Shown here one piece after another: positions 8,567 through 62,922 of a stretch of 64,000 bases of DNA (within the stretch, counting starts at the first letter, position 1; every line of letters starts with the position of its first letter). The notes beneath the pieces were generated by a model. The model was not told the origin of the DNA. It was given only the letters and a program-made list of their open reading frames with translations, and made no database searches. Source of the stretch: Leptolyngbya sp. FACHB-8 (lineage in GTDB: Bacteria; Cyanobacteriota; Cyanobacteriia; Elainellales; Elainellaceae). The stretch is from assembly GCF_014695575.1 (NCBI RefSeq), contig NZ_JACJOO010000019.1, positions 1 through 64,000 of the forward strand. Direction: 5' to 3'. The translations under genes were made by a program, and so were the position numbers.

Positions 8567-8662
8567 TATAGCGCTGTGCACGTTGATTAAGTACGGTGGT
8601 GTGTGGCACGAAGTGCCACACACCACCGTTGTTGTACTTAACGCACTTGCACATTGCTATAC
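8567..8662. repeat. Variable-core hairpin repeat, family E, copy 1
   Basis: Outer sequence TATAGC...GTGCACGTTGATTAAGTAC to GTACTTAACGCACTTGCACATTGCTATA surrounds the hairpin CGGTGGTGTGTGGCACGAAG and its complement. Copy 2 at 62829-62922 has the same outer sequence in the opposite orientation, with a slightly different core (GTGTGGGGCAC). Confidence 0.8.
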
Positions 8663-12068: not shown

Positions 12069-12204
12069 GGAGGGGAGGCCCGTATATATGCACGGTTTCC
12101 TCTATTCAATCCTGCTTAATCTTCAGTAAAAATCCCTCTTAAGATAGAGGATTAATGGAATGGAACGCCATTAGTCGTAAACCTTGAAAGAAACAGGACT
12201 TACC

Positions 12205-12255
12205 CACCTTTGTTGTGGGTGGGGGTGCTCTGCACCCCCACCCACAACAAAGGTG
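12205..12255. repeat. Variable-core hairpin, family F, copy 1
   Basis: Follows AGGACTTAC and forms CACCTTTGTTGTGGGTGGGG pairing with its exact complement around a TCT loop. Related elements, all next to an AGGACTTA/TAAGTCCT edge, lie at 34453, 43051 and 49648. Confidence 0.75.
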
Positions 12256-12341
12256 TTCTAGATATAGCGGACTTGCGTAAGCCCTAGGAAATTAAGCCTG
12301 TTGAAAGGGCAATTGTCTCCCTGTACAGCCTTTGTCGCGTT

Positions 12342-12470
12342 AGTTAACGTCAGTTCGGGATAAGCCGAACCGCCCATTATTGCGTGCGCGACGCGCACGC
12401 AATAATGGGCTTTTTCGAGTGCCGCGCTCCGTGCGGCACTCGAAAAAGCCCTTAACCCGGACTGAGGTTA
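12342..12470. repeat. Composite repeat: outer inverted repeat around two hairpins
   Basis: Outer arms TAACGTCAGTTCGGGATAAG and CTTAACCCGGACTGAGGTTA are near-complementary. Between them sit two adjacent perfect stems, GCCCATTATTGCGTGCGC (12372-12410) and GGGCTTTTTCGAGTGCCGC (12408-12452). As a single strand this would fold like a three-way junction. A compact version without the inner stems (GATAAGCC, TTTAACCCGAACT) occurs near 42902. Confidence 0.7.
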
Positions 12471-18111: not shown

Positions 18112-18173
18112 GGGAGATTTCCAACCATGAAATTACCAAGATGTTCGGTAAATTCTTATGCAGAAACCTCCTA
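18112..18173. repeat. Variable-core repeat, family A, short copy
   Basis: GGAGATTTCCAACCATGAAA, then a short interior, then GGTAAATTCTTATGCAGAAA and CCTCCTA. The outer sequence is nearly identical to 36475-36580, where a 53-base hairpin occupies the interior; here the interior is only ~17 bases (TTACCAAGATGTTCGGT). Confidence 0.8.
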
Positions 18174-18239
18174 ACCTTACGTTATCGGGTTATGACAGTT
18201 CACCCGTAGCTTTTTTATTCTTAGGATCACGAACAAAAT

Positions 18240-18304
18240 AACCTGTAATTCTTGTTGTGAGAGGGGCGGCAAAGCCGCCCCTCTCACAACAAGAATTACA
18301 GGTT
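18240..18304. repeat. Variable-core repeat, family G, copy 1
   Basis: The ends AACCTGTAATTCTTG and CAAGAATTACAGGTT enclose the perfect stem TTGTGAGAGGGGCGGC with an AAA loop. The copy at 34506-34567 keeps the ends but has a different stem. Nearby GGATCACGAACAAA and GCGATCC flanks also resemble those of the other copy. Confidence 0.85.
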
Positions 18305-18375
18305 AATAAATACGCGATCCTGAGTAGCAGGTAGTATTTTCAGGGGAAGAAACACTGCTTTAGGAAACAACGCCG

Positions 18376-25948: not shown

Positions 25949-26049
25949 TTACAGCGCTTTGCGCTTGAATCAGCTACGGTTGTTTTGTGAGAGCCGCGCG
26001 GAGCGCGGCTCTCACAAAACAACAGGATTTTAAGCGCTTGAAAAGCGCC
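25949..26049. repeat. Variable-core repeat, family C, copy 1
   Basis: Outer TTACAGCGCTTTGCGCTTGA and TTTTAAGCGCTTGAAAAGCG enclose a stem (GTTGTTTTGTGAGAGCCGCG) with its complement. Copy 2 at 53842-53945 keeps the outer sequence with a partly different stem. The outer arms are themselves complementary (AGCGCTTT/AAAGCGC). Confidence 0.85.
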
Positions 26050-26113
26050 GTAGCAACTGGACATAAGCCTTAAGGTACTAAGGGCTTGAGATAACACAAC
26101 TTACATCAAATCT

Positions 26114-28503: not shown

Positions 28504-28725
28504 TTGACATTTCTAGCCATAGATAATGTGAAGAGCGACGATACTGGAACAACAATCTACGGTTTTCCAGACGTGCCTCATGCATTCGCATTTACGATCC
28601 AAGACGCTGATGGATCAATCTAGGTGCCTTCAAATTACAACGTTGTTCAACAGACCGCCTGTATGAATCGTTTTTTGAGGGTGCGAGAGGTTGCACAGCC
28701 AAGCGAGCAACCCACACAGGAGATC

Positions 28726-28834
28726 CAGGGTAGGGAGGCGCTGCCTCCTACCCTGAAAGCTTTGCGGGTGTGGCAAGCCTTGCCTGCCACACCCGCAAAG
28801 CTAAGTTTTTAATCTGCACAAGCGGGATGCACCC
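28726..28834. repeat. Two hairpins; the second is family D, copy 1
   Basis: CAGGGTAGGGAGGCGC and complement form 28726-28755. Then AGCTTTGCGGGTGTGGCA and complement form 28758-28801, followed by TTTTTAATCTGCACAAGCGG and GATGCACCC. The tail matches copies at 42948 and 62371, where the core stem is different. It lies right after the stop-side of the ABC gene at 28846. Confidence 0.75.
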
Positions 28835-28845
28835 TTCTGGATGTT

Positions 28846-30603
28846 TTAATCGGCTCCCATTTGGAGGGCATAGAGATTGGCATAGACACCCTGACGAGCC
28901 ATCAGTTCGGCATGAGTGCCGCGCTCGGCAATCTGGCCCTGTTGGATGACGAGCACCTGATCAGCCTGGGTAACGGTGCTGAGACGGTGGGCAATGACAA
29001 AGCTCGTGCGGTTTTGGAGGAGACGGGCGATCGCCTCCTGCACCAATGCCTCTGTCCGCGTATCAATGCTGCTTGTCGCCTCATCCAGAACCAGAATGCG
29101 GGGATTGACCAGCACAGCCCGAGCAATGCTCACCAACTGCCGCTGTCCCTGGCTGAGGGGAGCACCGCGTTCTCCCAGTTGAGTGCTGTAACCCTGGGGA
29201 AGGGTCGTGATAAATTCATGCACATTGGCGGCTTGAGCGGCGGCTTCAATTTCTGCATGGCTGGCATGGGAAGCACCAAAAGCAATGTTTTCAGCCACAG
29301 TGCCACTAAATAGCAGGTTATCCTGCAACACAATCCCGATCTGACGGCGCAAACTGGCCTGAGTCACCCGCCGCACATCCAACCCATCAATTTTGACGGC
29401 CCCATCCGTCACATCATAAAACCGCAGAATCAGGTTGATAATCGTACTTTTTCCCGCGCCTGTGGGCCCCACTAAGGCAATCATTTGCCCCGGTTCCGCG
29501 ATTAAGTTGACGTCGTTCAAGACCCGCTGGTTAGGGGTGTATCCAAAAGACACGTTTTCAAAACGGACTTCCCCCTGAATGGGTGGCATCTCCCAGGCAT
29601 TAGGGGCGTCCTGCAATTGGGCGGGCTCATCCAACAGGAAAAAGATGCGATCCAACCCTGCCAGAGCCGACTGCGCCTGAGTATAAAACTGGCTCAGAAT
29701 TTGAATGGGACGGAAAAACTGCTGCACGTATAGCAGAAAGGACGTAACCATTCCTACGGTTGCGGCTCCTGTCACGGCCAGGTAGCCCCCGTAGGCCATT
29801 ACCCCTGCGGTTGCAAGAGTATTCAAAAAGTCGATTGAAGGTAAAAATGCTGCCGTTACAGCTACCGCCTGTACATTGGCTCGACGATTAGCAGCATTGA
29901 GGCTGTCAAACTCTTCAATGTTGAGCTGGGTGCGGTTAAAGGCCTGAGCTTCGCGCACGCTACCAATGTCTTCTTCTAACTTGGCGGAGAGTTCGCCAAT
30001 GGTCTCGCGGGTAACCCGGAACCGCTGTCTGGCCCAGCGCGAGAAGAACCCGGTCGTAAATACCATCAAGGGCACCACCAAATTGCTGAGCAGCGCAAGC
30101 GGCACATTAATAGAAAACATGGCAATAATGATGCCCACCAGGCTGAAGGTCTGGCCCAACATCTGGGGAATGGTGAGACCGAATGCCTGATTTACGGTGT
30201 TGACATCATTAATTAAGCGGCTCATCAGATCGCCCGCTTCACTGCGATCGAAAAAGCTGACGGGCAAACTTTGAATTTTAGTGAAAATATCTTCCCGCAA
30301 CTGGCCCAGCAAGCGCTGCATGATCGAACCCATGCGCAAGATTTGACCGCGAGTTGCCCACACCCCCAGGCCATAAATCAGGGCTAGAAAGATCAACAGT
30401 TGCACCAATCCAGGCCAATTGCCCTGAAGAATCAGGTGATCGATAGCCCAACCAATCAGCAACGGACCAATAGACAGGCTAGATGCACCCAACAGAACGA
30501 GTAGAAACGCGACCGGAAGTTCATCCCGGTAGGGTAAAAAGTACTGGAGAAAACGGCTCAGGGTCGAGGCTTTGAGTTTGGCATCGGTTCCAGCTTGCAT
30601 CAT
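28846..30603 (-). CDS. ABC exporter half-transporter (canonical ATPase site)
   Basis: 585-aa half ABC exporter: six membrane helices in residues ~30-320, then an ATPase domain with Walker A GPTGAGKST, signature LSQGQRQ, Walker B LVLDEATSSID with the catalytic Glu, and an H-loop AHRLST. It starts with the ATG of a TAATG overlap with the stop of the preceding ABC gene, so the two are translationally coupled and very probably form a heterodimer. The substrate is unknown; drugs, lipids or peptides are usual for this group. Confidence 0.92.
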   Translation of the reverse strand: MMQAGTDAKLKASTLSRFLQYFLPYRDELPVAFLLVLLGASSLSIGPLLIGWAIDHLILQGNWPGLVQLLIFLALIYGLGVWATRGQILRMGSIMQRLLGQLREDIFTKIQSLPVSFFDRSEAGDLMSRLINDVNTVNQAFGLTIPQMLGQTFSLVGIIIAMFSINVPLALLSNLVVPLMVFTTGFFSRWARQRFRVTRETIGELSAKLEEDIGSVREAQAFNRTQLNIEEFDSLNAANRRANVQAVAVTAAFLPSIDFLNTLATAGVMAYGGYLAVTGAATVGMVTSFLLYVQQFFRPIQILSQFYTQAQSALAGLDRIFFLLDEPAQLQDAPNAWEMPPIQGEVRFENVSFGYTPNQRVLNDVNLIAEPGQMIALVGPTGAGKSTIINLILRFYDVTDGAVKIDGLDVRRVTQASLRRQIGIVLQDNLLFSGTVAENIAFGASHASHAEIEAAAQAANVHEFITTLPQGYSTQLGERGAPLSQGQRQLVSIARAVLVNPRILVLDEATSSIDTRTEALVQEAIARLLQNRTSFVIAHRLSTVTQADQVLVIQQGQIAERGTHAELMARQGVYANLYALQMGAD

Positions 30604-32690: not shown

Positions 32691-34397
32691 GTGGAAACAG
32701 GATATCGTGTGACAGAGAAGGTAAAGCGCTCTAGACGCGCATGGGTCAAGACAGCTCAATCGACATTAGCCAATTGGCTACTTGGGTTAGCGAACCGACT
32801 AGAGCCAGGAAACAGAGAGCAGAGTTTACAGATTCCGCCTCCCAGAAAAAATATCCCTTCTATAGTCCCTGCAAGACCTGAGAATGAGGGCGATCGCCTG
32901 ACTGCCCTGAAGCGCTATGAAATTTTGGATAGCGCGGCTGAAGAAGAATTTGACGATCTCGTTCGTCTGGCATCTTACATCTGCGGCACACCGATCGCGC
33001 TGATCAGCCTAACCGATTCGCATCGGCAGTGGTTCAAGTCAAAACTGGGAACACCTCTGCCAGAACTGCCGCGAGAAATGACCTTCTGCTCCCATGCCAT
33101 TCTCGAACCCATGCAACCGATGGTGGTGCAAGACGCTTTAGATGACGATCGCTTCGCCGACAATCCATTAGTCTCTAACGATCCCAACCTGCGATTTTAT
33201 GCCGGACATCCCCTGGTCACCCCCGACGGTTATCCATTGGGAACGCTTTGTGTGATGGATTATATTCCCCGCCACCTCAACTCAGCTCAGCTTGAGGCAC
33301 TACAGATGGTAGGGCGCTGTGTCATGACACAAATGGAACTCCGGCTGAATCTCAAACGTCTGGAACACCAACGCACACAGCAACAAGAAACGGAAGCCAA
33401 ACTGCGAGCATCTGACCAGCAGGTCGTCAATTTGCTGGAACACATGACAGATGCTTTCCTTGCCACCGATCGCCAGGGACACTTTAGCTACATCAACCAG
33501 GAAGCAGCGACTATTTTGCAACGGGAGAAGCATCTTCTTTTGGGGCACGTGATTTGGGACGTGCTGCCAGAGTTGATTGGGTCTACCTTTGAGCAAAAAT
33601 TTCGGTGGGCATTAGCGCACCAAACAAATGTGGTTCTGGAAGAATTCTATAAACCCAGCAACCGATGGTTAGAGGTACGCATCTTCCCGTCCTATGATGG
33701 AGTATCTGTCTTCTTCCATGACATTACGACGCGCAAAAATACGGAAGTGGCTCTGCGCTTGGCGCAAGAGAAATCCGATCGCCTGTTGTTGAATATTATT
33801 CCCCAATCAATTGCTGAGCGGCTAAAACAGAATTCAGCCGCCATTGCCGATGACTTTGAAGATGTCACGGTTCTGTTTGCCGATATTGTCGGTTTTACAG
33901 AACTGAGTAGCCAGGTGTCACCGATTAAGCTAGTCGGATTACTCAATCAGATTTTTTCTGTCTTTGATCGATTGGCTGAACAGCATGGGTTAGAAAAAAT
34001 CAAAACCATTGGGGACGCATATATGGTTGCAGGGGGGTTACCTGAGCCCCAGCCCAATCATGCAGAAGCTGCAGCACGAATGGCACTCGATATGCAGCAG
34101 GAAATCATCCAGTTTACAGCCCGAGAAAACCAACCCATTGCTCTGCGCATTGGTCTTCACACGGGCCCGGTGGTAGCAGGGGTTATTGGTTCCCGAAAGT
34201 TCAGCTACGACTTGTGGGGAGATACAGTGAATATTGCCAGCCGGATGGAATCCTGTGGGGTGAGTGGTGGCATTCAAGTCACCGATTCAACCTATGAGCG
34301 TTTGCGCGACCAATACTGGTTTGAACCCCGAGGCATGGTCAGCGTTAAAGGAAAAGGCGAGATGATGACTTACTGGCTAAAAGGAGCCATGCCATAG
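32691..34397 (+). CDS. GAF-PAS adenylate cyclase (class III)
   Basis: 568-aa soluble cyclase. After a basic N-terminus come a GAF domain (~70-230; ALKRYEILDSA opening, FCSHAIL, GTLCVMD), a PAS domain (~240-350) and a class III nucleotide cyclase domain (~375-560) with both metal aspartates (TVLFADIVGF and GDAYMVAGG). The purine-specificity positions are Lys (EKIKTIGD) and Asp (SYDLWGDTVN), which indicates ATP, so the product should be cAMP. The frame opens at a GTG with weak ribosome-binding context; a second GTG lies six codons in. It is divergent from the ABC operon. Likely input is a small ligand or redox/light cue through GAF or PAS. Confidence 0.9.
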   Translation: METGYRVTEKVKRSRRAWVKTAQSTLANWLLGLANRLEPGNREQSLQIPPPRKNIPSIVPARPENEGDRLTALKRYEILDSAAEEEFDDLVRLASYICGTPIALISLTDSHRQWFKSKLGTPLPELPREMTFCSHAILEPMQPMVVQDALDDDRFADNPLVSNDPNLRFYAGHPLVTPDGYPLGTLCVMDYIPRHLNSAQLEALQMVGRCVMTQMELRLNLKRLEHQRTQQQETEAKLRASDQQVVNLLEHMTDAFLATDRQGHFSYINQEAATILQREKHLLLGHVIWDVLPELIGSTFEQKFRWALAHQTNVVLEEFYKPSNRWLEVRIFPSYDGVSVFFHDITTRKNTEVALRLAQEKSDRLLLNIIPQSIAERLKQNSAAIADDFEDVTVLFADIVGFTELSSQVSPIKLVGLLNQIFSVFDRLAEQHGLEKIKTIGDAYMVAGGLPEPQPNHAEAAARMALDMQQEIIQFTARENQPIALRIGLHTGPVVAGVIGSRKFSYDLWGDTVNIASRMESCGVSGGIQVTDSTYERLRDQYWFEPRGMVSVKGKGEMMTYWLKGAMP

Positions 34398-34452
34398 GGG
34401 CCAAGACGTGCCTTAAAAGCTGCTACGCGAGTTCTCTATGTTTAGGAAATTC

Positions 34453-34487
34453 CTGTTGTGTGTGGTATACGAAGCACATCACACAAC
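34453..34487. repeat. Variable-core hairpin, family F, copy 2
   Basis: TGTTGTGTGTGGTATACGAA and an imperfect complement, followed by AATGCGTAAGTCCTG, the right edge shared with the copies at 43051 and 49648. It sits ~55 bases after the cyclase stop. Confidence 0.65.
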
Positions 34488-34505
34488 AAAAATGCGTAAG
34501 TCCTG

Positions 34506-34567
34506 AACCTGTAATTCCTTTTAGGGGAGTGGCGGCTTAGCCACTCCCCTAAAAGGAATTACAGGTT
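34506..34567. repeat. Variable-core repeat, family G, copy 2
   Basis: AACCTGTAATTCC and GGAATTACAGGTT enclose the stem TTTTAGGGGAGTGGC with its complement. The ends match 18240-18304, but the stem sequence is different. Confidence 0.85.
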
Positions 34568-34650
34568 GTTTCATTTGTGATCCTAGGAGTTTTTGTTTGT
34601 ACGCTCGTGTATAAACATTCAATCCCGAAAGCAAGGTCTAGCAGTCCGTC

Positions 34651-34735
34651 AATGTTTAGGTGTGGGGTAACCCCACACCTAAACATTAAATTCCAGGACT
34701 TTTTGAGGGGTCTACGGCCCCTCAAAAAGTCCTGG
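34651..34735. repeat. Two adjacent perfect hairpins
   Basis: 34651-34687 is a perfect palindrome beginning AATGTTTAGGTGTGGGG. 34693-34735 pairs CCAGGACTTTTTGAGGGG with its complement around a TCTACGG-type loop. The first resembles the core at 39989. Confidence 0.8.
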
Positions 34736-34743
34736 ATAGAAGA

Positions 34744-34844
34744 CTAGTATGCTGAGGCGGAAATCCATCACCTATGTTTTTGTGTGGGGTGCGAAGCACC
34801 CCACACAAAAACATAGTATGCAAACTTAGGCGGCAGCCTACTAG
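34744..34844. repeat. Variable-core repeat, family B, copy 1
   Basis: CTAGTATGCTGAGGCGG ... ACTTAGGCGGCAGCCTACTAG encloses ATCACCTATGTTTTTGTGTG and its complement with a GAA loop. Other copies: 36672-36773 and 53201-53300. Its last bases overlap the stop codon of the AlkB-like gene. Confidence 0.85.
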
Positions 34845-35425
34845 CCAATCACACGAAAGGTTAAGTTGATGCGGGGTGAAACGGGACGTTTGGTTTTAGG
34901 AATCTGGTGCTGCCAGTGATGTTGCGTTGCCCCTCGCATCAGTAAGAGACTTCCTGAGGTGAGTTCCACTTGATGCTTCAGGGTTTTATCAAACCGATGC
35001 CGCAACATAAATCGTCGGGTTCCTCCCAAACTGAGGGAGCCGATAACTGGATTGTGTCCCAATTCGGGTTCATCGTCACTGTGCCAACCCATGCTGTCAT
35101 TTCCATCCCGATACAGGTTGAGAAGCACACTGTTATACACAACGCCCGAGATAGCATCGGCCTTTACTTTTAGATCAAGCAACGGTGGTATCCAGGGGGT
35201 TGGCATCATCGTGAGATTTGAGTAAGTATAGGATTTACCGGGATCTCCATACCAGGCTGTGAGTCGGGGTTGCAGCAGCGATCGCCCAAACAATGTAATA
35301 GCATCCTGCCGCCATTGAATACGCTGAGTCAACTCTGTCAGGAAGCGATCGCTCTCCGATACATTCAAGAAGTTGGGGTAAAACTGGATGTCTGCATCGG
35401 GTAGGGGCAAGGAAAGCTTGAGCAT
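34841..35425 (-). CDS. AlkB-like 2OG-Fe(II) oxygenase
   Basis: 194-aa protein of the AlkB family of iron/2-oxoglutarate dioxygenases, which remove alkyl groups from DNA or RNA bases. The iron ligands are visible as WHSDDE (His-x-Asp) and the distal His in GATQHHWQHQIPK, with the 2-oxoglutarate-binding Arg in SPRINLTFR. AWYGDPGKSYTYS matches the substrate-binding lid of ALKBH2/3-like members. The ATG at 35425 (MLKLSLPLPDADIQFY) is chosen; the frame is open 41 codons further up but without domain content. The stop codon lies inside a family B repeat. Divergent from the H1-tailed HTH gene. Probably cytoplasmic DNA repair. Confidence 0.9.
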   Translation of the reverse strand: MLKLSLPLPDADIQFYPNFLNVSESDRFLTELTQRIQWRQDAITLFGRSLLQPRLTAWYGDPGKSYTYSNLTMMPTPWIPPLLDLKVKADAISGVVYNSVLLNLYRDGNDSMGWHSDDEPELGHNPVIGSLSLGGTRRFMLRHRFDKTLKHQVELTSGSLLLMRGATQHHWQHQIPKTKRPVSPRINLTFRVIG

Positions 35426-35733
35426 ATAACGCAGCAACGGAAGATTAATGAAGTTTAATACCAGTTCAGAATGAAGATGTCGCTGACTTCGTGACCCACC
35501 CGAGTTCCCATAGAAGGTGGGGTGCATCCTGATTCGGAAGAAATACAAGCCTGAGCAATATCATCGAGCAACAGGTAAAAGGCGCCAACGGGAACAACAG
35601 GGTAATAGAAATCTGACAAAAGTAAGAATTAATCGCAGATGACCCTAAATAAATGGTAATTCCTTCCAAATTTAAGCTAAAAGTAATGCAGGACTCGTAC
35701 GAGTGATCGCAAGATTCAATACGAGGGCAGAAA

Positions 35734-35750
35734 TCAACTATCCACCTATT
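35734..35750 (+). promoter_or_regulatory. Conserved upstream block of the H1-tailed HTH paralogs
   Basis: TCAACTATCCACCTATT lies 20 bases before the ATG at 35771, and the same 17 bases lie at the same distance before the paralog start at 60169 (on the other strand). A further GAGAA is shared between the block and the ATG. It may be a protein-binding site or conserved leader for both genes. Confidence 0.6.
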
Positions 35751-35770
35751 TGATATCCGAGAATACACCT

Positions 35771-36322
35771 ATGGCAGCCAAAAGAGGGCGATCGCCCGCA
35801 GCCGCAACCATCACTCAAAATTCCATTGACGAGGCGTCCGCCGCTTTAGAGGGATTGCCTGAAAAACCCAAGACCTCCTGGTCGCTTCGAGAAGCTGTTA
35901 ATCAATTGCAGGGAACCATTAATGCAGCTCTAGAGCGGGGTTATTCCCACCAGGAAGTAGCAGAAATGCTCGGCGAGCAAGGTATTCGCATCAGCCCGGC
36001 TTCTCTCAAGTCTTATCTAGCAGCGATCAATCGTGACGCAGGTTCGTCGGCTCCCAAGCGGCGACGTTCGTCAGCCAAAGCGAGTGCCCCCGAAGAAGCG
36101 GCTGCTCCCGAAGAAGCTCCCGCACCTGAGCCTACCCCCGCGCCCGAAAGCCAAGCTGAAGAAGCACCTGCGCCTAAGAAGACTCGGGGACGGGGCACTG
36201 GTCCTCGCACCGCTAACAAAGCAAAAGCCCCCGCTGCGAAAACAAAGAAAACTGGTACTGAGTCCGGTGCCCCTCGAGGCCGTCGGAAGAAGACGGATTC
36301 AGCTGCTAAAACAGCGTCCTGA
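35771..36322 (+). CDS. HTH protein with histone-H1-like basic tail (paralog 1)
   Basis: 183-aa protein. Residues ~10-95 are a compact helical domain with a probable helix-turn-helix (YSHQEVAEMLGEQGIRIS then SLKSYLAA), reminiscent of plasmid mobilisation or recombination accessory proteins. The C-terminal half is a disordered Ala/Pro/Lys/Arg-rich tail (APEPTPAPES, KTKKTG) resembling histone H1 or AlgP tails, which suits non-specific DNA binding. A paralog at 59576-60169 has ~70% similar HTH but an independently built tail, and both share a 17-bp upstream block. The ATG at 35771 matches the paralog start. Function unknown; a nucleoid-associated or regulatory role is inferred. Confidence 0.8.
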   Translation: MAAKRGRSPAAATITQNSIDEASAALEGLPEKPKTSWSLREAVNQLQGTINAALERGYSHQEVAEMLGEQGIRISPASLKSYLAAINRDAGSSAPKRRRSSAKASAPEEAAAPEEAPAPEPTPAPESQAEEAPAPKKTRGRGTGPRTANKAKAPAAKTKKTGTESGAPRGRRKKTDSAAKTAS

Positions 36323-36395
36323 TGCTTAAAGCCACAAATTAGGAAGCGTGCAGGGGCGAATGACCTATTCGCCCTATTTTTGGCTGCAATCTCAT

Positions 36396-36438
36396 CTTTT
36401 GTGGGAGCAGGTGGCTTTGCCACCGCTCCCACAAAAAG
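36396..36438. repeat. Hairpin
   Basis: CTTTTGTGGGAGCAGGTGGC pairs with its complement (one mismatch) around TTT. Outer bases TTGC and GCAA-like edges extend the symmetry. It lies 75 bases after the H1-tailed gene. Confidence 0.7.
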
Positions 36439-36474
36439 AATTGCAAGTTGTTAAATGCAAGGTTCTTAGGGCTA

Positions 36475-36580
36475 AGGAGATTTCCAGCAATGAAATTACC
36501 CCCCAGGATGTTGGTGTTTTGCCCGCGAAGCGGGCAAAACACCAACATCCTGGGTAAATTCTTATGCAGAAACGTCCTAA
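36475..36580. repeat. Variable-core repeat, family A, long copy
   Basis: GGAGATTTCCAGCAATGAAA ... GGTAAATTCTTATGCAGAAA matches 18112-18173, but the interior holds a perfect 53-base hairpin at 36502-36554 (CCCAGGATGTTGGTGTTTTG with complement, GAA loop). Comparing the two copies shows the hairpin as an extra unit. Confidence 0.85.
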
Positions 36581-36671
36581 GAGGATTATTTTCTAAAAGC
36601 TGTGTTCCAAGTTGCCTTTCAAAAATAACTGGTCCTCACAAGATTGTGTAAGGCAAGAAAATTACGACTGA

Positions 36672-36773
36672 CTAGTAGGCTGGGGCAGAAGTGTACAACC
36701 TAATTTTTTGTGGTGGGGTGCTTCGCACCTCACCACAAAAAATAGGCAACGAACTTAGGCCGTAGCCTACTAG
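36672..36773. repeat. Variable-core repeat, family B, copy 2
   Basis: CTAGTAGGCTGGGGCAG ... ACTTAGGCCGTAGCCTACTAG with core stem ATTTTTTGTGGTGGGGTGC and a TTC loop. Outer sequence as at 34744 and 53201; core differs. Confidence 0.85.
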
Positions 36774-36843
36774 GATCTTTCAGAGGTGTTTCTTCGTGCG
36801 CTAAGTGCTCAAAAAATATCTCTTCCAGCCATTAAGACATACC

Positions 36844-38880
36844 CTAGTCCTGATCCGGCTGGTTATCAAAATCACCCAGTAACGCTTTAATTTGCTTCAG
36901 GTGCTTTGGCTGAATGGTTCGCTGACCTTTGAGCCAGCGGGTGACCAGGGAGCGATCAACTTGCAGAGTATCGGCCAGCTGTGCCTTTGTCATGCCCTTC
37001 GCTTCCAAAGCGGCCTTGATGGCTTCACCCGTCAAGGCAGGGGGTTGGGGAACCGCGCGAGACGCCTTTAGGGCAATAGGTGCATGGCCTCCTAGCTTCT
37101 CTTGAATTTTGACAGAAGGTTTAATAATAACAATGGCTTTCAGCCATATAGATAGCCAATTACGTGGGCGATAGCCTGAATCCACATCCTCATTCAGCGA
37201 CCAGGTGGGGCGAATGCTCTCTGGATAAGTGGCCGGATCAAAGCCGATTTCCCATCCCAATTCTTTGAGGGTGAGCAATGCACTATCCCACTGATTGATT
37301 AATTTGACCCGACGCAGGCGATCCTTGCGCAGGGCATCTAGTAAATCCTTTGGTTCTAACCGTTCCAGCAGCGTTTGTACTTCATAGCGGCCATCATCGC
37401 GAATGCGGCTCATGATAGTCAGGAAAATAGCCAGCTTGGATGCTAAGCGTTGACGATAGGGGTTGATTTGCAGCGTACTCTTCGCAAGATAGCCGTATTG
37501 AAAGAGAGATTCTCTTGCGTGAGTATCACTAGCATTGAGGAATTTTTCAGTCCAGATTCCCGGACGTACTTTTATATATAGTTCATCCGGATCACCCGCT
37601 TCATACGTCGGTGAATCGGGCTGATTCATATCCATGGTTAATGCTAGTTGACCCGCATACCCCAAGCCCTCCAGAATCCACATTGGACCTCGTTCAACGT
37701 TATAACGCTTGGCTCCAATGTTAATGTTCTTGACTAAAACGGAAAGGCTACAAACCAGTTCTACCAAGTGTCCGATCTTCTTCAGTTTTTGAGCGATGGT
37801 GATATCGGTACGCTTATCCCAACCGAACAGGCGGATCAGATCTGTACCTCGTAACCGAATTTGCTCAGCCCAGGGCTCCTCTGAATCGGTCGCGTAAGAG
37901 GAAAAGATCAGAAATACATAGGCTGCTTCTGGACCAAACTGTTGAATAATTTCCCAGGCCGCTTTGCCAGGAACTAACTCAATCTGTTGACTAGACGGGC
38001 TCTGGCGTACAATCTGGTGCTGGATGAAGCCTTCCCCTACCAGCTTTTTCCAGTAGGGATACTCTCCATCCTCCCATTGGGAATTGATGAGTGCCTGAGC
38101 TCCTGTCAGGATGGGATACCCTGTTGCAACCCGTTCCATTTCCGTATCCTGAAACAGTGGTTCACGGCTCGTTGTTCCATGGCTGGACTTTAGCCCCAAC
38201 AATTTGTCAATTTCCGCTGCACTGTGGCCGGACAAATTTAGGTGGCGTAACCACTGACTGGCCGTGTGGAAGGCACAAGCACTAACAACGAGGGATTCAC
38301 GCCATTCATCACTGTCGGTTAAATCAGCACCAGACTCCAGGGACAACATGCCGACCACAGCACAGTCAGCAGGCATTAAATCTTCGCGACGCCATTGTTC
38401 AAGCCGCACTAATATCCAGTTTGCAGATTGTTCCCAGAACTCATCGGTTTTTAAGACTGAACGAAATCGACGTTCCAGCCGCATCATCGTCTCTTTTTGT
38501 AGAGCACCGATTTTTTCAGTTTCGTCGTAGAGGTTGATAACATCGGCATCGTTCTGTAATCGCGCATTTGCCAAATGCAATCGAAACTGATTGATTCCGG
38601 TGGCAACGTTGACCAACACTAAATTGAGGAAAGACTTACCCGCTTTTAACTTTGCCGCGTACTGTTGCATCTGTTGTTGGTTCAACGCAATGGATGCAAG
38701 GTCAGAGGCAAGCGGCTCAGTCAGAACGGATGTTGAGTCGAGAGTGAGATTGTTAAACTGAGTCACGGGTTTTACGCAAAGCTTATCCACATCGGCATAG
38801 TATACTTCCGAGATCGAAAGATCTGGATCATCTTCCAGATAAATGTCAATAGACTTGACTGAGCGATCGCCTTCATCCAC
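36844..38880 (-). CDS. Large protein with C-terminal Xre-type HTH, possible replication or regulatory protein
   Basis: 678-aa protein, not recognised as a whole. The C-terminal ~60 residues form a clear lambda-repressor-type HTH (KAALEAKGMTKAQLADTLQV, DRSLVTRWLKG). The central part has helix-rich segments that could be winged-helix domains (RGTDLIRLFGWDKRTD followed by a hydrophobic stretch), as in plasmid replication initiators. The gene points away from the TTGAC/CTAGA repeat array (39070-40116), and the AEP-primase gene points away on the other side. This suggests the protein binds the array. The start ATG at 38880 lies within ~190 bases of the first array half-site. Function is inferred from context only. 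Confidence 0.6.
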   Translation of the reverse strand: MDEGDRSVKSIDIYLEDDPDLSISEVYYADVDKLCVKPVTQFNNLTLDSTSVLTEPLASDLASIALNQQQMQQYAAKLKAGKSFLNLVLVNVATGINQFRLHLANARLQNDADVINLYDETEKIGALQKETMMRLERRFRSVLKTDEFWEQSANWILVRLEQWRREDLMPADCAVVGMLSLESGADLTDSDEWRESLVVSACAFHTASQWLRHLNLSGHSAAEIDKLLGLKSSHGTTSREPLFQDTEMERVATGYPILTGAQALINSQWEDGEYPYWKKLVGEGFIQHQIVRQSPSSQQIELVPGKAAWEIIQQFGPEAAYVFLIFSSYATDSEEPWAEQIRLRGTDLIRLFGWDKRTDITIAQKLKKIGHLVELVCSLSVLVKNINIGAKRYNVERGPMWILEGLGYAGQLALTMDMNQPDSPTYEAGDPDELYIKVRPGIWTEKFLNASDTHARESLFQYGYLAKSTLQINPYRQRLASKLAIFLTIMSRIRDDGRYEVQTLLERLEPKDLLDALRKDRLRRVKLINQWDSALLTLKELGWEIGFDPATYPESIRPTWSLNEDVDSGYRPRNWLSIWLKAIVIIKPSVKIQEKLGGHAPIALKASRAVPQPPALTGEAIKAALEAKGMTKAQLADTLQVDRSLVTRWLKGQRTIQPKHLKQIKALLGDFDNQPDQD

Positions 38881-39644
38881 TTCCTAAAAAAATTAGATAG
38901 CTTCACTAGCATGGGTTTTAGCGATCGCGCCTACTCTTTCTCATTGCTTTTAAAGACTAGGATCGTGTAACTTTCTGACTAGGATCGATAAACATATTAG
39001 ACAAGTGACTGATATACCCTCTCAGAGAGGGACCCAAGTACCGCTTGAAACACTGAATAATTGGTAATTTTTCTAGTTGTCAATTCAGGACTCAATAAAA
39101 GCTAGAATTTGGCAAAAGTTTAACTTTCTTAACAATTGACACAATTGACCTGGATTCTAGAATCCTATTACATTTGTCAATTCTTGAATGGGCAACGTGC
39201 CGGAACCCTTTTCAGTAACTGGCAACTCTCCCTCATTTACAAGGCATTGGCCAAAAGTCCTTCTATGGTTTTATCCACAGGATGGAGTACTTTGAGCCTG
39301 TAGTTGGATGCGTTGAAAGGGATCATCTATGCCCTCGCCAACCCACTCAACTATCGATCCAAACACTCATTCGCCTCGATATGGTGGTTAGGGAAATCGA
39401 GCGTTTTCCTAAATTGACAAATTGACTTGTCGTTCTAGAGTCCAGCAACATCTGTCAATTTTACCGGCAGCTACAGGTCGATTGACAAATTGACTTGTTG
39501 TTCTAGTATCAAGCAACATGGAGTGCCTGTGCTCTGGCTTTGTTGACCTCGCTCAGCTCGATCAATCATGGGTTTCAGGTCAGTAGAACCGGATTGACAA
39601 ATTGACAGGCCACTCTAGAATCTTGCAACGTTTAGGATAATCCT

Positions 39645-39774
39645 AGCAATTCTCATTTTGGAATCCAACCCGAAAATAGCCCGTCTTCGGCGGGCTATTT
39701 TCGGGCTTCAAAGCTGAGAGTTCCTGCCCTTCGGGCAGGAACTCTCAGCTTTGAAGCTCATACTGAGAATTGCT
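39645..39774. repeat. Composite repeat, family H, copy 1 (inside the array)
   Basis: Terminal inverted repeats AGCAATTCTCA/TGAGAATTGCT enclose two hairpins: CCCGAAAATAGCCCG with complement, and TTCAAAGCTGAGAGTTCCTG with complement. A second copy at 50409-50532 has the same ends and first hairpin, but the inner part of the second hairpin is replaced. It interrupts the iteron-like array. Confidence 0.9.
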
Positions 39775-39988
39775 GCCTCTTAAGGGTTCGAATTGACAAA
39801 TTGACAAGCCACTCTAGAATCTTGCAACACACCCTATTTTTCTAGCGTTGACAAAGTTGACAGGTTCTCTAGTATCCTAAAACATTGCGTTGACAGATTT
39901 GACCAAGGCTCTAGAATGCCATAACAAAAATTTCCGAGAGTCTTCCTTCTTGCTCAAAGCTCTAATACTGGACAACCTGGATTTGCCT

Positions 39989-40033
39989 ATGTTTAGTGGT
40001 GTAAGGTGCAAAGCACCCTACGCCACTAAACAT
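39989..40033. repeat. Hairpin inside the array
   Basis: ATGTTTAGTGGTGTAAGGTG and its near-complement around a CAAAG loop. Its outer ATGTTTAG resembles 34651-34687. Confidence 0.75.
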
Positions 40034-40462
40034 TAAGTTGGCTGCTGCCATCGAGCTCTAGGATGCTACAACAAAAGCCCTGGAAGCCTTGCTAGAGGTC
40101 TAGAATAGCGCTACGAAAAAATTTAGTACTGAATTTTCGCCGCTAGGATCTGCCAACAAAGAGATCTGGCAACTTACGCAAAATCAAGGGTTGTAGCTCT
40201 AATTGCCAAATCTAAGAACTATTTAGATACCGATGGTTGACTAACTCAGCTTTGCCAAAAACAGGTTGTTTAATGATCAAACATAATCATCAGCCAGCAT
40301 AGTATCCGCTGGTCTGTACTTTTGCGCGACCCCTCAATTTCTAGGGGGTTGGTTCTGCATAGCCTATGCAGCAACTCACCCTTTGGAATTTTGTCTGGGT
40401 ATGTTTGTCGTGCTTTAGCTTCGAGTCCCTGGTTGGGAGGCATCCTGATTGCTATAAACCCT

Positions 40463-42418
40463 ATGAAACAGACCCATACAATTCGGTTTGAAAGTGTTCG
40501 TGAATGGGGAGATGCATTTCTATCTCTGTTTCCCCATAGGTTTGACTATATTTTTGCGCCCCATGCCAATCCAGGTGAAACGCCTGCATGGCGAACTGAA
40601 AGCCGCCATCCATTGAGCGATCGCCTTATTCAACAAGGGGCTTATCTCTATGGTGTTCGCTTTGGTGCAGAAACCAACTATGGCCTTTTAGATATTGACT
40701 CTGGGAGTCGCTATCACCCCAAACACGACCCGTTGGCTATCTCACGGATTGCAGCTGCGTTAGAACCCATAGGTTTGGTTCATTATGTTGCCTGCACCTC
40801 TAGCTACAGCGGTGGCTTGCATTTGTACTTTCCGTTTCAGAATGCGCAAAGCTCGTGGCAGCTAGCGATCGCCCTCGCTTGCCTCTTAGAAAATGCTGGA
40901 TTTAAAATCCAGGCCGGACAACTTGAGATTTTTCCAAATCCTAAACCCTATGGAGTGGGAGGGAACCTCAGTTTGTTTAATGCCCACCGATTACCGCTAC
41001 AAAGCGGTTCCTACCTGCTCAATGAGTCCTGGGAACCTATTTGGAGTGATACGCAAACCTTTGTCAATCGTTGGAAACTGGCTCAACAACGCAACGACAT
41101 TGATAGTCATGCGTTGAAACGGATCATTAAACAAGCTAAACGGAAGCACTTTGGTATTTCTGGAAAAGCAGAAAAGTTTATCAACGATTTGAATGCTGAG
41201 ATCGAGGTGGGCTGGACAGGATATGGACAGACCAATCGTTTATTGGGCCGTATTACTATGCGGTGCTATATCTTTCATCACCTACTTTCCGGTGGAGAAC
41301 CACTACAGGGCGATGCGCTTGTAGCGGAGATTGTTGAAACTGCTCAAGCACTACCGGGCTATCAAGAGTGGTGTCGGCATCAACATGAAATTGAACAGCG
41401 GGCTGAGGAATGGGCTCGATGCATTGAACATAGCCACTACTTTCCTTTCGGAAGCCAATCGCAAAAACCAAAACCCGAAGAACGAGGTCCCGAATTAACG
41501 GCTGCGATTGACCAATCGCCCTCCTGGAATCAGCGCCAATCAGCTGCAACACGCGATCGCATTCGACGAGCCATCGCTGACTTACTCGAACAAGACAAAC
41601 TCCCAGCTAAAGCAACCGCTCGGTTTCAGGCATTACTGCAATATGGAATCGGCGGTGCTTCTCTGTATCGTCATCGAGATTTATGGCATCCCAATTATTT
41701 AGGAGTTGAGCCCACTCAAGACCCAGCTCATGGTGACAATGCATCTGGTGATAATGCATCTGGCAATACACCTGTGGAAAACCCCCCGAACCCCCCGGCT
41801 CTTCATAGAGATGGGCAGTTAGATTGCGCTAAAGGCGCACCTAACTGCCACAGTTCTACAAACTTATTAGCTACGGGAGATGGTGATAACTTACAGGGCA
41901 AGGGTTTCAGCGATCGCACTTCTCCTAAATCTCCTAAAAATGGGAGTGATATAGGTGATAGAGCTCCTTCTTCCCAACACGGCATTCCGTTTATTCGTAG
42001 AGTGTTGTCTCAGATCAAAGCAACACAGCAATCCCTGCAAGAAACCTTACGGTCGACTCAGAAACAGCATCGTCACCATCAATCTCAGCAGGCGAGGCAA
42101 CAGCAAATTGCTCGAATGCAGCAGTTTCTGAACTCTGGTGACCCAATTCTGGTGGCTGAAGCTTTAGCTTGGGCGGAGCGTAATCCGGGTGTTCTCCCCA
42201 CAGATCCAGGTCATCCTTCGTTGTCATCCCTACCTCCTGAGCCTGGTAATCGTTCAGCTCTGATGACGGCTATTCAATCGCAAATCACCCGTTTGAGATG
42301 GGCGGATACCCGGGTGTGTGACTGTTTGCATCAACAATTCCATAAAGATTGCCTGACCCAATTAAGTGATGAGGAGTTAAGTCAATGGTTGTCGTGGTTA
42401 AGTTCGCAGAGTGAATGA
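40463..42418 (+). CDS. AEP-type primase/replication protein
   Basis: About 651-aa protein. The N-terminal domain has the three motifs of archaeo-eukaryotic primase (prim-pol) folds: LLDIDSG with Asp77/Asp79, SGGLHLYF with the Ser-x-His signature ending at His120, and GQLEIFP with Glu155. Such domains serve as plasmid replication primases or initiators. A helical region and a long low-complexity linker (~420-540) follow, then a Gln/His-rich coiled segment and a C-terminal helical part. I chose the ATG at 40463 (MKQTHTIRFESV), as the upstream 47 codons begin with TTG and lack domain content. It lies next to the iteron-like array, suggesting a replication module of plasmid origin. A DUF6788-like gene follows 95 bp downstream. 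Confidence 0.8.
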   Translation: MKQTHTIRFESVREWGDAFLSLFPHRFDYIFAPHANPGETPAWRTESRHPLSDRLIQQGAYLYGVRFGAETNYGLLDIDSGSRYHPKHDPLAISRIAAALEPIGLVHYVACTSSYSGGLHLYFPFQNAQSSWQLAIALACLLENAGFKIQAGQLEIFPNPKPYGVGGNLSLFNAHRLPLQSGSYLLNESWEPIWSDTQTFVNRWKLAQQRNDIDSHALKRIIKQAKRKHFGISGKAEKFINDLNAEIEVGWTGYGQTNRLLGRITMRCYIFHHLLSGGEPLQGDALVAEIVETAQALPGYQEWCRHQHEIEQRAEEWARCIEHSHYFPFGSQSQKPKPEERGPELTAAIDQSPSWNQRQSAATRDRIRRAIADLLEQDKLPAKATARFQALLQYGIGGASLYRHRDLWHPNYLGVEPTQDPAHGDNASGDNASGNTPVENPPNPPALHRDGQLDCAKGAPNCHSSTNLLATGDGDNLQGKGFSDRTSPKSPKNGSDIGDRAPSSQHGIPFIRRVLSQIKATQQSLQETLRSTQKQHRHHQSQQARQQQIARMQQFLNSGDPILVAEALAWAERNPGVLPTDPGHPSLSSLPPEPGNRSALMTAIQSQITRLRWADTRVCDCLHQQFHKDCLTQLSDEELSQWLSWLSSQSE

Positions 42419-42480
42419 CAGGGAAATGAGCCGAAGCACAACCGCATCATGCATCAGCGATGAACACTAGATCTGAATTT

Positions 42481-42511
42481 GTACATAAGAAGAGTTTCTG
42501 TACATAAGAAG
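42481..42511 (+). repeat. Tandem GTACATAAGAA motif
   Basis: GTACATAAGAA occurs twice, 19 bases apart, ending 3 bases before the ATG at 42514. An inverted pair with 18-base spacing lies at 2014-2045. It occupies the ribosome-binding region and could be an operator; function unknown. Confidence 0.5.
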
Positions 42512-42513
42512 CT

Positions 42514-42867
42514 ATGAACCTCGACTTGAATTTTGATAGCCTGCGGCGTACTCTCTATGCTCTTGACTTGGAGCAGGCCAGGCAACTTCGGGATGAGCTG
42601 AGTGTTGTAATTCAAACCCTGGAAGAGCGATCGCCTCCCGCTCCTCCGGTTAAAACAAGGGGCCGCGAGATTATAGAGGTTCGCCATCTAGGGATCGGGC
42701 CATCTGCTCGTCTTTATCAGCTAGAGCGGATTCGTTGTGGCAAAGCGGGTTGTAAGTGCGCTGGGGAAAATGGCAAGCTACATGGCCCTTACTGGTATGT
42801 CTATTGGCGAGATGCAGGCAAGCTGAAGAGCCGATATGTGGGAAAGCGGTTAAAGGTTGAGGAATGA
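42514..42867 (+). CDS. DUF6788-like protein
   Basis: 117-aa protein. After an N-terminal helical stretch, the C-terminal half has the pattern RCGKAGCKCAGENGKLHGPY then YVYWRDAGKLKSRYVGK, typical of the DUF6788 family: a small Cys-containing (C-x4-C-x-C) basic domain widespread in bacteria on plasmids and near mobile elements. It is probably nucleic-acid-binding. It follows the AEP-primase gene by 95 bp in the same direction and may belong to the same plasmid-derived module. The ATG at 42514 follows tandem GTACATAAGAA repeats. Confidence 0.75.
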   Translation: MNLDLNFDSLRRTLYALDLEQARQLRDELSVVIQTLEERSPPAPPVKTRGREIIEVRHLGIGPSARLYQLERIRCGKAGCKCAGENGKLHGPYWYVYWRDAGKLKSRYVGKRLKVEE

Positions 42868-42947: not shown

Positions 42948-43033
42948 GGGTGCATCCCAGTTTTATTGATGTGGCGGGCGAAGCCCGCCACATTAATAAA
43001 ACTGGGTTTTCAATCTGCAAAAGTGAGGTGTAC
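42948..43033. repeat. Variable-core repeat, family D, copy 2
   Basis: GGGTGCATCCCAGTTTTATT ... TTTTCAATCTGCAAAAGTGA encloses GATGTGGCGGGC with complement and a GAA loop. Copy 3 at 62371-62458 has nearly the same core; copy 1 at 28758 has a different core. Confidence 0.85.
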
Positions 43034-43050
43034 TCAGTCCCTATATCTAG

Positions 43051-43102
43051 TGCATCGTTGTTGTGGGTGGGGTGCTCTGCACCCCACCCACAACAACGAT
43101 GC
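43051..43102. repeat. Variable-core hairpin, family F, copy 3
   Basis: TGCATCGTTGTTGTGGGTGG pairs perfectly with its complement around TCT, followed by TAAGTCCTGTTCA. It lies 10 bases from the stop of the minus-strand glycosyltransferase gene. Confidence 0.8.
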
Positions 43103-43113
43103 ATAAGTCCTGT

Positions 43114-45043: not shown

Positions 45044-45048
45044 AGCCG

Positions 45049-49647: not shown

Positions 49648-49738
49648 AGGACTTACGCGAGTCCTCTATCCGTAGTGTATTTGTGTTGTGGATGGGGTGC
49701 TTCGCACCCCATCCACAACACAAATGCGTAAGTCCTGT
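49648..49738. repeat. Variable-core repeat, family F, copy 4 (complete)
   Basis: AGGACTTACGCGAGTCCTCT ... ATGCGTAAGTCCT flanks the stem TTGTGTTGTGGATGGGGTGC with its complement. The outer AGGACTTACGC/GCGTAAGTCCT is itself an inverted repeat. The gap 49461-49647 holds nothing else recognised. Confidence 0.85.
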
Positions 49739-50362: not shown

Positions 50363-50408
50363 AAACGTGAGGGGCATACATCTTCCCTCCTGACGCCTGG
50401 CGCAAGAC

Positions 50409-50532
50409 AGCAATGCTCATTTTGGAATCCAACCCGAAAATAGCCCGCTAAGACGGGCTATTATTCGGGCTTCAAAGCTGATTCGTGCCCGAAGGGCACG
50501 AATCAGCTTTGAAGCCCATACTGAGAATTGCT
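50409..50532. repeat. Composite repeat, family H, copy 2
   Basis: AGCAATGCTCATTTTGGAAT ... CATACTGAGAATTGCT with hairpin CCCGAAAATAGCCCG kept, and the second hairpin core replaced: TTCGTGCCCGAAGGGCACGA instead of GAGTTCCTGCCC at 39645. Complementarity is kept despite the replacement. Confidence 0.9.
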
Positions 50533-50638
50533 GGGCGCAAGAGGACGATGCGCTTACCCTGGGCGATCGCTATATCATGGTGTAAATGCAAGCTCTTCAC
50601 ATCTAACCCCACGTTGCCGAGGTGATAAAGAAACGGCG

Positions 50639-53200: not shown

Positions 53201-53300
53201 CTAGTACGCTGAGGCGGCAATCCATCACCTATGTTTTTGTGTAGGTTGCTTCGCATCCTACACAAAAACATAGGTTGCGAACTTAGGCCACAGCCTACTA
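53201..53300. repeat. Variable-core repeat, family B, copy 3
   Basis: CTAGTACGCTGAGGCGGCAA ... ACTTAGGCCACAGCCTACTA. The core starts CACCTATGTTTTTGTGTAGG, identical to 34744 for the first bases, then diverging (TTGCTTCGCATCC) while keeping the hairpin. Confidence 0.85.
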
Positions 53301-53841: not shown

Positions 53842-53945
53842 TTACAGCGTTTTGCACTTGAATTAACCATGGTTGTTTTTGTGAGAGCTACGCACTCTGC
53901 GTAGCTCTCACAAAAACAACCAGATTTTAAGCGTTTGAAAAGCGC
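53842..53945. repeat. Variable-core repeat, family C, copy 2
   Basis: TTACAGCGTTTTGCACTTGA ... TTTTAAGCGTTTGAAAAGCG, with a stem (GGTTGTTTTTGTGAGAGCTA and complement) different from copy 1 at 25949. Confidence 0.85.
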
Positions 53946-54335
53946 TTTATGTTCCGGTCTTCCAACGCACAACATGAGCTACAACTTGAAATTGAGTTGG
54001 CATTAGAGTGCGATCGCCCAATGTACGCCAATCAATTGAGACTGAGTGTGTCGTGAAAACTTTGCTTGAATGAACTTGCTTTCAGAAGCTTTTTTATTGC
54101 GCATGCTCAGTATGGATAAAAATAAAATTACTTCTAAAACATGAATTTTTTAACGTGATGCCTTGTACCTCACTAAAAAATCTGCATTTTAGAGCTCTTG
54201 CCCTTTTACTGAGCGCATAAATCTATCATTACGTTAAACAGCATCGTTCACGCTTCCAAAGGAGTTCGAGCTTGAGAGTGATGGTTTCTCGTTTTTGTGA
54301 ACTATTCTACTAAAAAGCTACCCGGTAGCTGGGCA

Positions 54336-62370: not shown

Positions 62371-62458
62371 GGGTGCATCCCAGTTTTGTTAATGTGGCGG
62401 GCTTCGCCCGCCACATTAACAAAACCGAGTTTTCAATCTGCAAAAGTGGGATGTACCC
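62371..62458. repeat. Variable-core repeat, family D, copy 3
   Basis: GGGTGCATCCCAGTTTTGTT ... GTTTTCAATCTGCAAAAGTG with a stem AATGTGGCGGGC, TTC loop. Closely matches copy 2 at 42948, with the loop inverted. Confidence 0.85.
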
Positions 62459-62828: not shown

Positions 62829-62922
62829 TATAGCAACGTGCGAGTGCGTTAAGTACAGCAACGGTGGTGTGGGGCACGAAGTGCCCCACACCACCGTACT
62901 TAATCAACCCGCACATTGCTGT
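62829..62922. repeat. Variable-core repeat, family E, copy 2
   Basis: TATAGCAACGTGCGAGTGCG ... CGCACATTGCTGTA encloses CGGTGGTGTGGGGCAC with complement, GAA loop. Matches the family E repeat at 8567 in reverse orientation. It overlaps the remains of a receiver-domain gene. Confidence 0.85.

Follow-up and report, generated by a model that had tools for sequence, protein, structure and literature searches.

Near-perfect hairpins in several families of small mobile elements of Leptolyngbya sp. FACHB-8 and their probable maintenance by arm-templated copying

How can two copies of one repeat agree in their outer sequence and each carry a long self-complementary centre that seems unrelated to the other? 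The question was raised by a hairpin at position 34506 in a stretch of 64,000 nucleotides from Leptolyngbya sp. FACHB-8 (hereafter the window), whose partner lies at 18240. The earlier note on this DNA sorted such hairpins into at least eight families (A to H) and proposed that whole stems are replaced or regenerated. In the draft assembly of this genome (6.93 Mb, 95 contigs), the window is contig C11. We examined it together with 40 genome stretches, giving a sample of 840,849 bases or ~12% of the genome. For one window protein, the closest named relatives were all cyanobacterial, RU_5_1 (Leptolyngbyaceae) and YX3bin19 (Thermosynechococcaceae), both at 79%, followed by FACHB-502 (78%) and Leptolyngbyaceae M33_DOE_097 (77%), very near records possibly having been omitted.

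Folded as DNA, the focal hairpin reached -32.9 and -32.5 kcal/mol on the two strands (z about -12). It carries the outer arms of family G, as does its listed partner, and its left outer flank has been replaced by the end of a family F copy. Across the genome, family G occupies at least 38 separate places, as counted with 40 of 125 candidates scored, and has at least 71 match rows on both strands. The cores could be aligned in 21 copies. Among 651 pair cells, 610 were Watson-Crick, 7 were G-T, 13 were mismatched and 21 were gapped, and the copies differed, by eye, by mirrored substitutions and mirrored losses of one, two or three pairs. The pair at 18240 and 34506 looks unrelated because only two copies were compared. 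In the other families the cores also aligned by eye, with 9-20 rows per family, those of family F being the most diverged. There were exceptions: the interiors of subfamilies A1 and A2 differ from one another, the core is missing from the A copy at 18113-18171, the F cores look different by eye between this genome and the same-genus genome G001, and the copy of family D at 28758 has diverged strongly. The observation in the earlier note thus holds with respect to the hairpins, the flank families and the loop type, but not, as stated, for central stems often unrelated between copies. Cores that align once all copies are collected, which the note itself had named as the outcome speaking against it, are what the fuller family alignments contain, and replacement of whole stems is not needed.

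We estimate with a probability of about three in four that these sequences are several non-autonomous families of the MITE type, moved by different transposases, whose near-perfect hairpins are kept by arm-templated copying, that is, template switching.

Hairpins and repeat families

In the window, 31 perfect hairpins (arms of at least 12 bp, loops of 3-12) were counted, and none in any of five first-order shuffles. Over 459,554 bases the numbers were 199 and 0, the latter in a second-order shuffle (one per contig). The hairpins are therefore real and far above chance. The whole sample contained 366 hairpins (0.44 per kb), 315 of them perfect, with a median arm of 22. An element has one or two hairpins with arms of 15-30 bp and a usually tight loop. 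Loops were mostly tri-nucleotides, and these were mostly closed by GC, as had been noticed earlier; 208 of the 366 had a 3-nt loop, and in 153 of these 208 the closing was GC..GC.

Grouping by flank alone gave families of 34, 20, 19, 16, 12, 11 and 7 copies along with smaller ones, and 202 of 361 hairpins remained single. Profiles were constructed for A1, A2, B, C, D, E, F, H and J. They covered 172 of the 366 hairpins of the sample; a further 106 had a second copy in the sample, and 88 did not. All 18 copies listed earlier for families A to F and H fell in profile matches of the named family, which is a check of grouping and not a blind test, as most had been profile seeds. With the two G copies, all 20 listed copies belong to flank families (Table 1).

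As the families had first been found via their hairpins, a repeat search blind to hairpins was also carried out on 183,834 intergenic bases of the sample, retaining regions with at least two other places. A hairpin was present in 189 of the resulting 218 intergenic repeat regions, and random intergenic placement averaged 49. The hairpins are thus not an effect of ascertainment. By eye, several of the 29 remaining regions, in which no hairpin was present, appeared to belong to families E, G, H or J in diverged form. An apparently hairpin-free short intergenic repeat of ~58 bp (C56 222674, C78 27134 and C93 16209) is an exception in this genome.

Several further features of the window were noted. 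Between 34424 and 34840, in less than 0.5 kb, hairpin elements are clustered: the truncated F copy, the focal G hairpin, two unnamed hairpins and a B element. Between 39133 and 39926, a 40-nt repeat (TTGACA..TTGAC..TCTAGAATC) occurs seven times at irregular spacing, and every copy has a sigma-70-like match of the TTGACA-16-TAGAAT type; TRF reported no tandem array, and one H element lies inside the cluster. Sites of GCGATCGC number 81 in the window.

Table 1. Coordinates of hairpin elements in the window and of restored sites (contig given where named)
Feature	Position	Strand	Remark
Focal hairpin, inner part of family G element	34506..34567	.	28-bp perfect arms, 6-nt loop
Family G, second window copy	18239..18305	.	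outer ends GGATC..GATCC, family target duplication TWA
Family F copy, truncated, adjoins focal G hairpin	34453..34505	+	
Family A1 element, 102 bp	36476..36577	+	TAA direct repeats on both sides
Coreless family A copy (59 bp)	18113..18171	+	
Family B element	34748..34840	+	CTAG on both sides
Family B element	36676..36769	+	CTAG on both sides; one half-changed stem pair
Family B element	53205..53297	+	CTAG left, CTAA right
Family C element	25952..26050	-	TA-flanked
Family C element	53845..53947	-	TA-flanked
Family D element	62371..62458	+	8-bp flanking repeats with one mismatch
Family D hairpin	42956..43006	+	profile match 42909-43055
Family D hairpin, diverged	28758..28802	+	profile match 28701-28852
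Family E element	8567..8661	+	family common to same-genus genome G001
Family E hairpin	62861..62897	+	profile match 62806-62941
Family F element	12196..12284	+	ends of CAGGACTTACGCA type; 5-bp flanking repeats with one mismatch
Family F element	49649..49735	-	exact 5-bp target duplication TTCAA
Family F hairpin	43051..43103	+	
Family H double-hairpin element, 132 bp	39644..39775	+	no clear target duplication
Family H element	50408..50533	+	9-bp target duplication GGCGCAAGA; mirrored 3-bp deletion in both arms of second hairpin
Family J double-hairpin element, 124 bp	12346..12469	+	absent from earlier list
Two adjacent hairpins	34651..34736	.	homologous pair in contig C53 16892-16974
Restored sites, family A	C78 85195, C35 5958		palindrome at C78 85195
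Restored sites, family D	C78 27454, C53 17169, C81 437		
Restored sites, family J	C51 1882, C11 12345		

Ends, target sites and transposases

Full-length elements of eight families were recovered via their inverted ends, with modal lengths of 87-132 bp. All eight have terminal inverted repeats; the outer ends of family G are GGATC..GATCC. Family B has CTAG at both ends, and family C is flanked by TA. A1 and A2 have the same ends and the same 3-bp target duplication, and their interiors, including the subterminal parts, are different.

Target duplications were evaluated against 1000 shuffles of the right flanks. In family A a 3-bp duplication (TWA) was exact in 29 of 34 elements (12.3 in shuffles). 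The 9-bp duplication of family H was exact in 8 of 18 (0.5), and the 5-bp duplication of family J was found in 11 of 20 (0.7). For D (8 bp) and F (5 bp), the match was 0.70 vs 0.27 and 0.88 vs 0.37, respectively. The 3-bp duplication (TWA) of family G was weaker, with 8 of 16 vs 4.1, and 14 of the 1000 shuffles were as good. The target sites of B (CTAG) and C (TA) are near-invariant, so that shuffling cannot prove a duplication, and in family E no target duplication could be shown. At seven of 149 junctions tested, removal of the element restored another repeat or a palindrome, according to our own reading of the alignments; the remaining rows mostly represented flank matching its own locus or a tandem copy. 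Two back-to-back pairs of B elements were also present, each pair with one common CTAG. Inverted ends, target duplications of fixed length, empty sites, and a short, non-coding, multi-copy nature are the characters of MITEs, and judged by these sequence features the families would be MITEs.

Inverted ends combined with target duplications of 3-9 bp are the mark of DDE-type transposition and not of IS200/IS605-type insertion, and the families were probably moved by several transposases of the DDE type. The REP-like single-strand transposase suggested earlier is not supported: the elements bear such ends and duplications, and no match to Y1_Tnp (PF01797) was obtained in this genome, five of 14 control genomes being positive. 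A link to TnpA_REP, or membership in REP/REPIN by way of a RAYT gene, was rejected on the same absence of Y1_Tnp. The Pfam families searched genome-wide were four (PF01797, PF01609, PF13586 and PF13358), in a draft assembly broken by repeats. No transposase gene with matching ends was found in this draft, either at the PF01609, PF13586 and PF13358 loci or in an end-pair scan of 841 kb. In the scan, pairs spanned ordinary genes or joined two ordinary copies; the PF01609 and PF13586 loci had no matching end pairs beyond ordinary copies, and one PF13358 locus displayed two F-like end matches. Contigs C72, C20 and C26 break inside the same DDE insertion sequence (ends L081, L082 and L083), the shared part of which ends at CTAG. 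This is an unassembled multi-copy insertion sequence. It was considered as a partner of family B but has a different end.

Evolution of arms and loops

In the mechanism that we propose, elements mostly of about 60-135 bp would be moved, now or formerly, by different transposases acting on the terminal inverted repeats and duplicating 3, 5, 8 or 9 bp of target. During replication, the hairpin would fold in a single strand and one arm would template the other, polymerase template switching acting to correct one arm from the other. Substitutions and indels arising in an arm would be either erased or mirrored, and stems would stay near-perfect while their sequence drifts. Switching between strands, or recombination between arms, would turn the loop round.

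Changes were counted on minimum spanning trees of nine families (114 copies), the rates being approximate as copy pairs are not independent. The flanks had 213 substitutions in 4783 sites (0.045). In the arms, 85 of 2816 pair cells had mirrored changes (0.030) and 108 were half-changed (0.038). With both arms mutating as fast as the flanks and with unbiased correction, the predicted mirrored rate, calculated by hand, is (2 x 0.0445 - 0.0384)/2 = 0.025 per pair, against the 0.030 seen. The assertion in the earlier note that paired changes cannot come from point mutation is consequently valid only if arms are not corrected, as flank mutation with unbiased correction comes close to the observed rate. 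In family G, the mirrored rate (0.045 per pair) was well below the predicted 0.109, which suggests that the G arms are constrained or that correction favours the old state. When G was pooled with the other nine, 0.033 was seen and 0.049 predicted, some G flanks being mis-oriented. Mirrored changes were also found between copies with nearly identical flanks (C93_16563 in family A and C78_73278 in A2).

Mirrored length changes were recognized by eye in H, A2, B and G. Scripted indel counts were mostly one-sided (24 vs 3 mirrored in the nine families, and 20 vs 1 in another count), in part because gap placement in T/A runs is arbitrary. Half-changes were in excess in one arm (79:36), element orientation being arbitrary for each family.

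Loop orientation was counted with the flanks fixed in one orientation. The ratios of loop to reverse complement were 12:6 in A1, 6:4 in A2, 9:9 in B, 6:4 in C, 5:4 in D and 4:3 in E, and, for the two-ratio families, 6:5 and 5:4 in J and 4:4 and 4:2 in G. H (4:1, 3:1, 4:2 and 2:2) and F (3:1) were less balanced. The common loops were present in both orientations in every family, and single copies had other loops. Among 41 copy pairs identical outside the loop, 14 had the same loop, 14 the inverted loop and 13 another; 30 of the 41 came from A1, and pairs are not independent. In these copies, loops are thus inverted quickly compared with the pace of point change. In the family E copies of a second genome of this genus (G001), GGC and GCC loops occurred 6:3 relative to the flanks, one variant copy aside. 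Mirrored substitutions, mirrored indels (by eye) and spacer inversion, by which a hairpin maintained by template switching is recognized, are all present here.

The most serious alternative is selection on RNA. The hairpins would be terminators or other structures at mRNA ends, and their pairing would be kept by compensatory mutation through G-U intermediates. Their location agrees with this. Of the 366 hairpins, 341 lie outside crude ORF calls (16 of these at the margins of a sampled contig, outside its outermost ORFs); by the same crude calls, convergent gaps have 3.65 hairpins per intergenic kb, tandem gaps 1.76 and divergent gaps 1.04, and 110 of 159 in tandem gaps are nearer the upstream stop. 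Terminator-like sites were also slightly above chance in the 19.1 kb from 34300 to 53400 (29 vs 20.4 +- 4.2). The bias towards gene ends would also fit with insertions being tolerated there or purged from promoters. As for intrinsic terminators (GC-rich stem plus T tract) in 34300-53400, stems of at least 15 pairs were present in only four of the 29 calls, representing three hairpins, and the other hairpins there were not called. No Rfam match above the gathering score was obtained in the window. Passage through G-U would enrich transitions, and no enrichment was seen among mirrored changes, which argues against compensation at the RNA level. Transitions and transversions were 50:35 among mirrored changes of the nine families and 152:61 in their flanks (p 0.04, fewer transitions in the former), and 16:7 vs 46:21 in family G; with G pooled with the nine, some G flanks being mis-oriented, arms and flanks were equal (p 0.82). 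The mismatches of tandem-gap hairpins, read on the sense strand, were 18 G-U, 11 A-C and 4 other, with no significant preference for G-U (p 0.26), and no route through G-U exists for mirrored indels or for loop inversion. We regard selection on RNA as improbable.

Replacement or regeneration of whole stems, for instance by a TnpA_REP-like single-strand transposase, is less probable still. It could account for A1 and A2, which combine common ends and a common target duplication with different interiors, and for the F cores, which look different by eye between this genome and G001. On the other hand, the genome has no Y1_Tnp, target duplications are 3-9 bp, and cores within families align and change stepwise. 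A1 and A2 differ outside the hairpin as well, as would separate MITE families with one common transposase. Judged from the fuller family alignments, this reading appears largely refuted. What stands of the interpretation in the earlier note is hairpin-primed copying or gene conversion, in the form of a change-by-change correction of arms; the differences between cores are few mirrored substitutions and indels. Core swapping between families was provisionally rejected as well, as A1 and A2 differ outside the core and nothing else pointed to swapping.

It is hardly credible that inverted loops arose in assembly and that mirrored states reflect only founder differences between subfamilies: both hairpin-rich genomes are drafts (95 and about 140 contigs) and many copies have identical arms, but loops are inverted relative to flanks in two independent assemblies, mirrored changes separate copies whose flanks are nearly identical, and ordinary reads exceed the 45-60 bp of a hairpin.

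Compensatory changes are usually taken as proof of RNA function. With mirrored substitutions, mirrored indels and both loop orientations occurring in mobile, mostly intergenic DNA, covariation alone would misclassify these stems as structured RNAs. The genome also offers a natural experiment in which template switching could readily be measured in a bacterium.

Arm composition, known systems and spread among genomes

In a perfect hairpin the 5' arm has the same sequence on both strands, so that its composition is independent of the strand. In 227 hairpins non-redundant by flank, the 5' arms consisted of 31% G, 29% T, 24% A and 16% C, with 176 above and 41 below half G+T. C made up 6-9% of the arm at 8-14 nt from the loop. 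The skew was retained when arms were clustered at up to 3/14 mismatches (133 vs 41 of 174) and disappeared at up to 5/14 (16 vs 14 of 30 clusters), because 328 of the 366 hairpins were then lumped in one cluster; clustering of arm tips at 4-5 mismatches lumps nearly everything and is a poor filter for non-redundancy. The 5' arms of G001 were also G/T-rich (50 vs 18 of 72), and those of other genera suggestively so (17 vs 8 of 30, p 0.11). Among polarised mirrored transitions, 20 of 94 A/C pairs had changed towards G/T and 21 of 150 G/T pairs away from it, in the expected direction and not significantly (odds ratio 1.66, p 0.16).

In the part of PMC8794818 consulted, intrastrand switching corrected to the 5' base is stated to predict that, with the 5' base named first, G-C and U-A pairs are in excess, for which a conserved strand is needed. 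G/T-rich 5' arms are the pattern predicted there for intrastrand switching. Preferring the strand with the G-T wobble would give a skewed 5' arm without a conserved strand. A bolder and rather doubtful extension, to be taken as tentative, is that hairpin-templated copying governs the evolution of mobile DNA throughout the genus. Nascent strands would fold back, prefer the arm with the G-T wobble and correct to the 5' base, yielding strand-independent, G/T-rich and C-poor 5' arms in unrelated transposon families, with near-perfect cores made and maintained by host replication. Why near-perfect hairpins should occur across at least four lengths of target duplication and in 189 of 218 intergenic repeats of one genome is the question raised. 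Either elements that form hairpins survive better, or host replication perfects any quasi-palindrome.

Very small mobile repeats, dispersed in cyanobacteria, were reportedly described by Elhai et al. in 2008; set beside them by description only, our elements are alike in being small, dispersed and mobile. The process of template switching itself is already published, as the parts of two papers considered here make clear: arm homogenisation and spacer inversion in yeast (Abraham and Hazkani-Covo, PMC8604942), and a proposal for RNA stems, in which complete loop inversions are very rare (Monttinen and Loytynoja, PMC8794818). By title, loop inversion is also on record for chloroplast DNA. With the hairpins of these two papers, again as far as the parts consulted go, ours have in common arm homogenisation, multi-base compensatory change, spacer inversion and the G-C/U-A excess from the 5' base. 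In contrast to RNA genes and yeast coding DNA, the hairpins here are in mobile DNA, their 5' arm is G/T-rich whatever the strand, and loop inversions are common.

The portion consulted of a review of bacterial MITEs (PMC10969869), which cites the cyanobacterial Nezha, describes small, intergenic elements of many copies with terminal inverted repeats and target duplications, as here; stable stem-loop transcripts are counted as a further likeness. Unlike those MITEs, most short intergenic repeats here have a near-perfect internal hairpin, there are several target-duplication lengths, and loop inversion and mirrored arm evolution were measured. REP/REPIN and the GTAG/CGTC palindromes, in the part of PMC3733652 consulted, are likewise short, intergenic, high in copy number and known in cyanobacteria. 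The GTAG repeats are associated with RAYT tyrosine transposases and have stems of mostly 6-9 bp, whereas here no such gene was found, stems are longer, and terminal inverted repeats come with target duplication. Hairpins on the scale of 189 of 218 intergenic repeats were not found in the literature as represented by titles and the openings of abstracts.

G001 had 72 hairpins in 354,785 bases (0.20 per kb). A genome of another genus (G010) had 0.076 per kb, and twelve other relatives had 0 to 0.042 in samples of ~10 to 140 kb. Of the genomes sampled, only the two of this genus thus had a high density (0.44 and 0.20 vs at most 0.076 elsewhere). Family E gave at least 45 match rows on both strands of its own genome and at least 25 in G001 (23 candidates scored in each), and between the two species its cores are separated by mirrored changes. 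Among 34 other genomes of the taxonomic family, three had one weak partial match each. In the G001 sample, the profiles of C, E and F gave six weak matches, 20 and 12, respectively, and those of A, B, D, H and J gave none. When a window stretch with A and B copies was compared with G001, all matches among the 15 candidates scored (of 98) were to genes.

Two observations were made in more distant genomes. Three hairpins of G010 (L055 13907-13969, L056 17300-17362 and L057 1143-1209) have a 25-bp tip identical to that of family B, with longer and different outer arms and, as stored, GAA and TTC loops. In G017, which belongs to another family and consists of a single contig, the hairpin repeat CTGAGTTTATGGTGGGGGCGC[TAC] is dispersed, with copies at L250 5783, L251 8227 and L252 4612, and its 5' arm is G/T-rich too.
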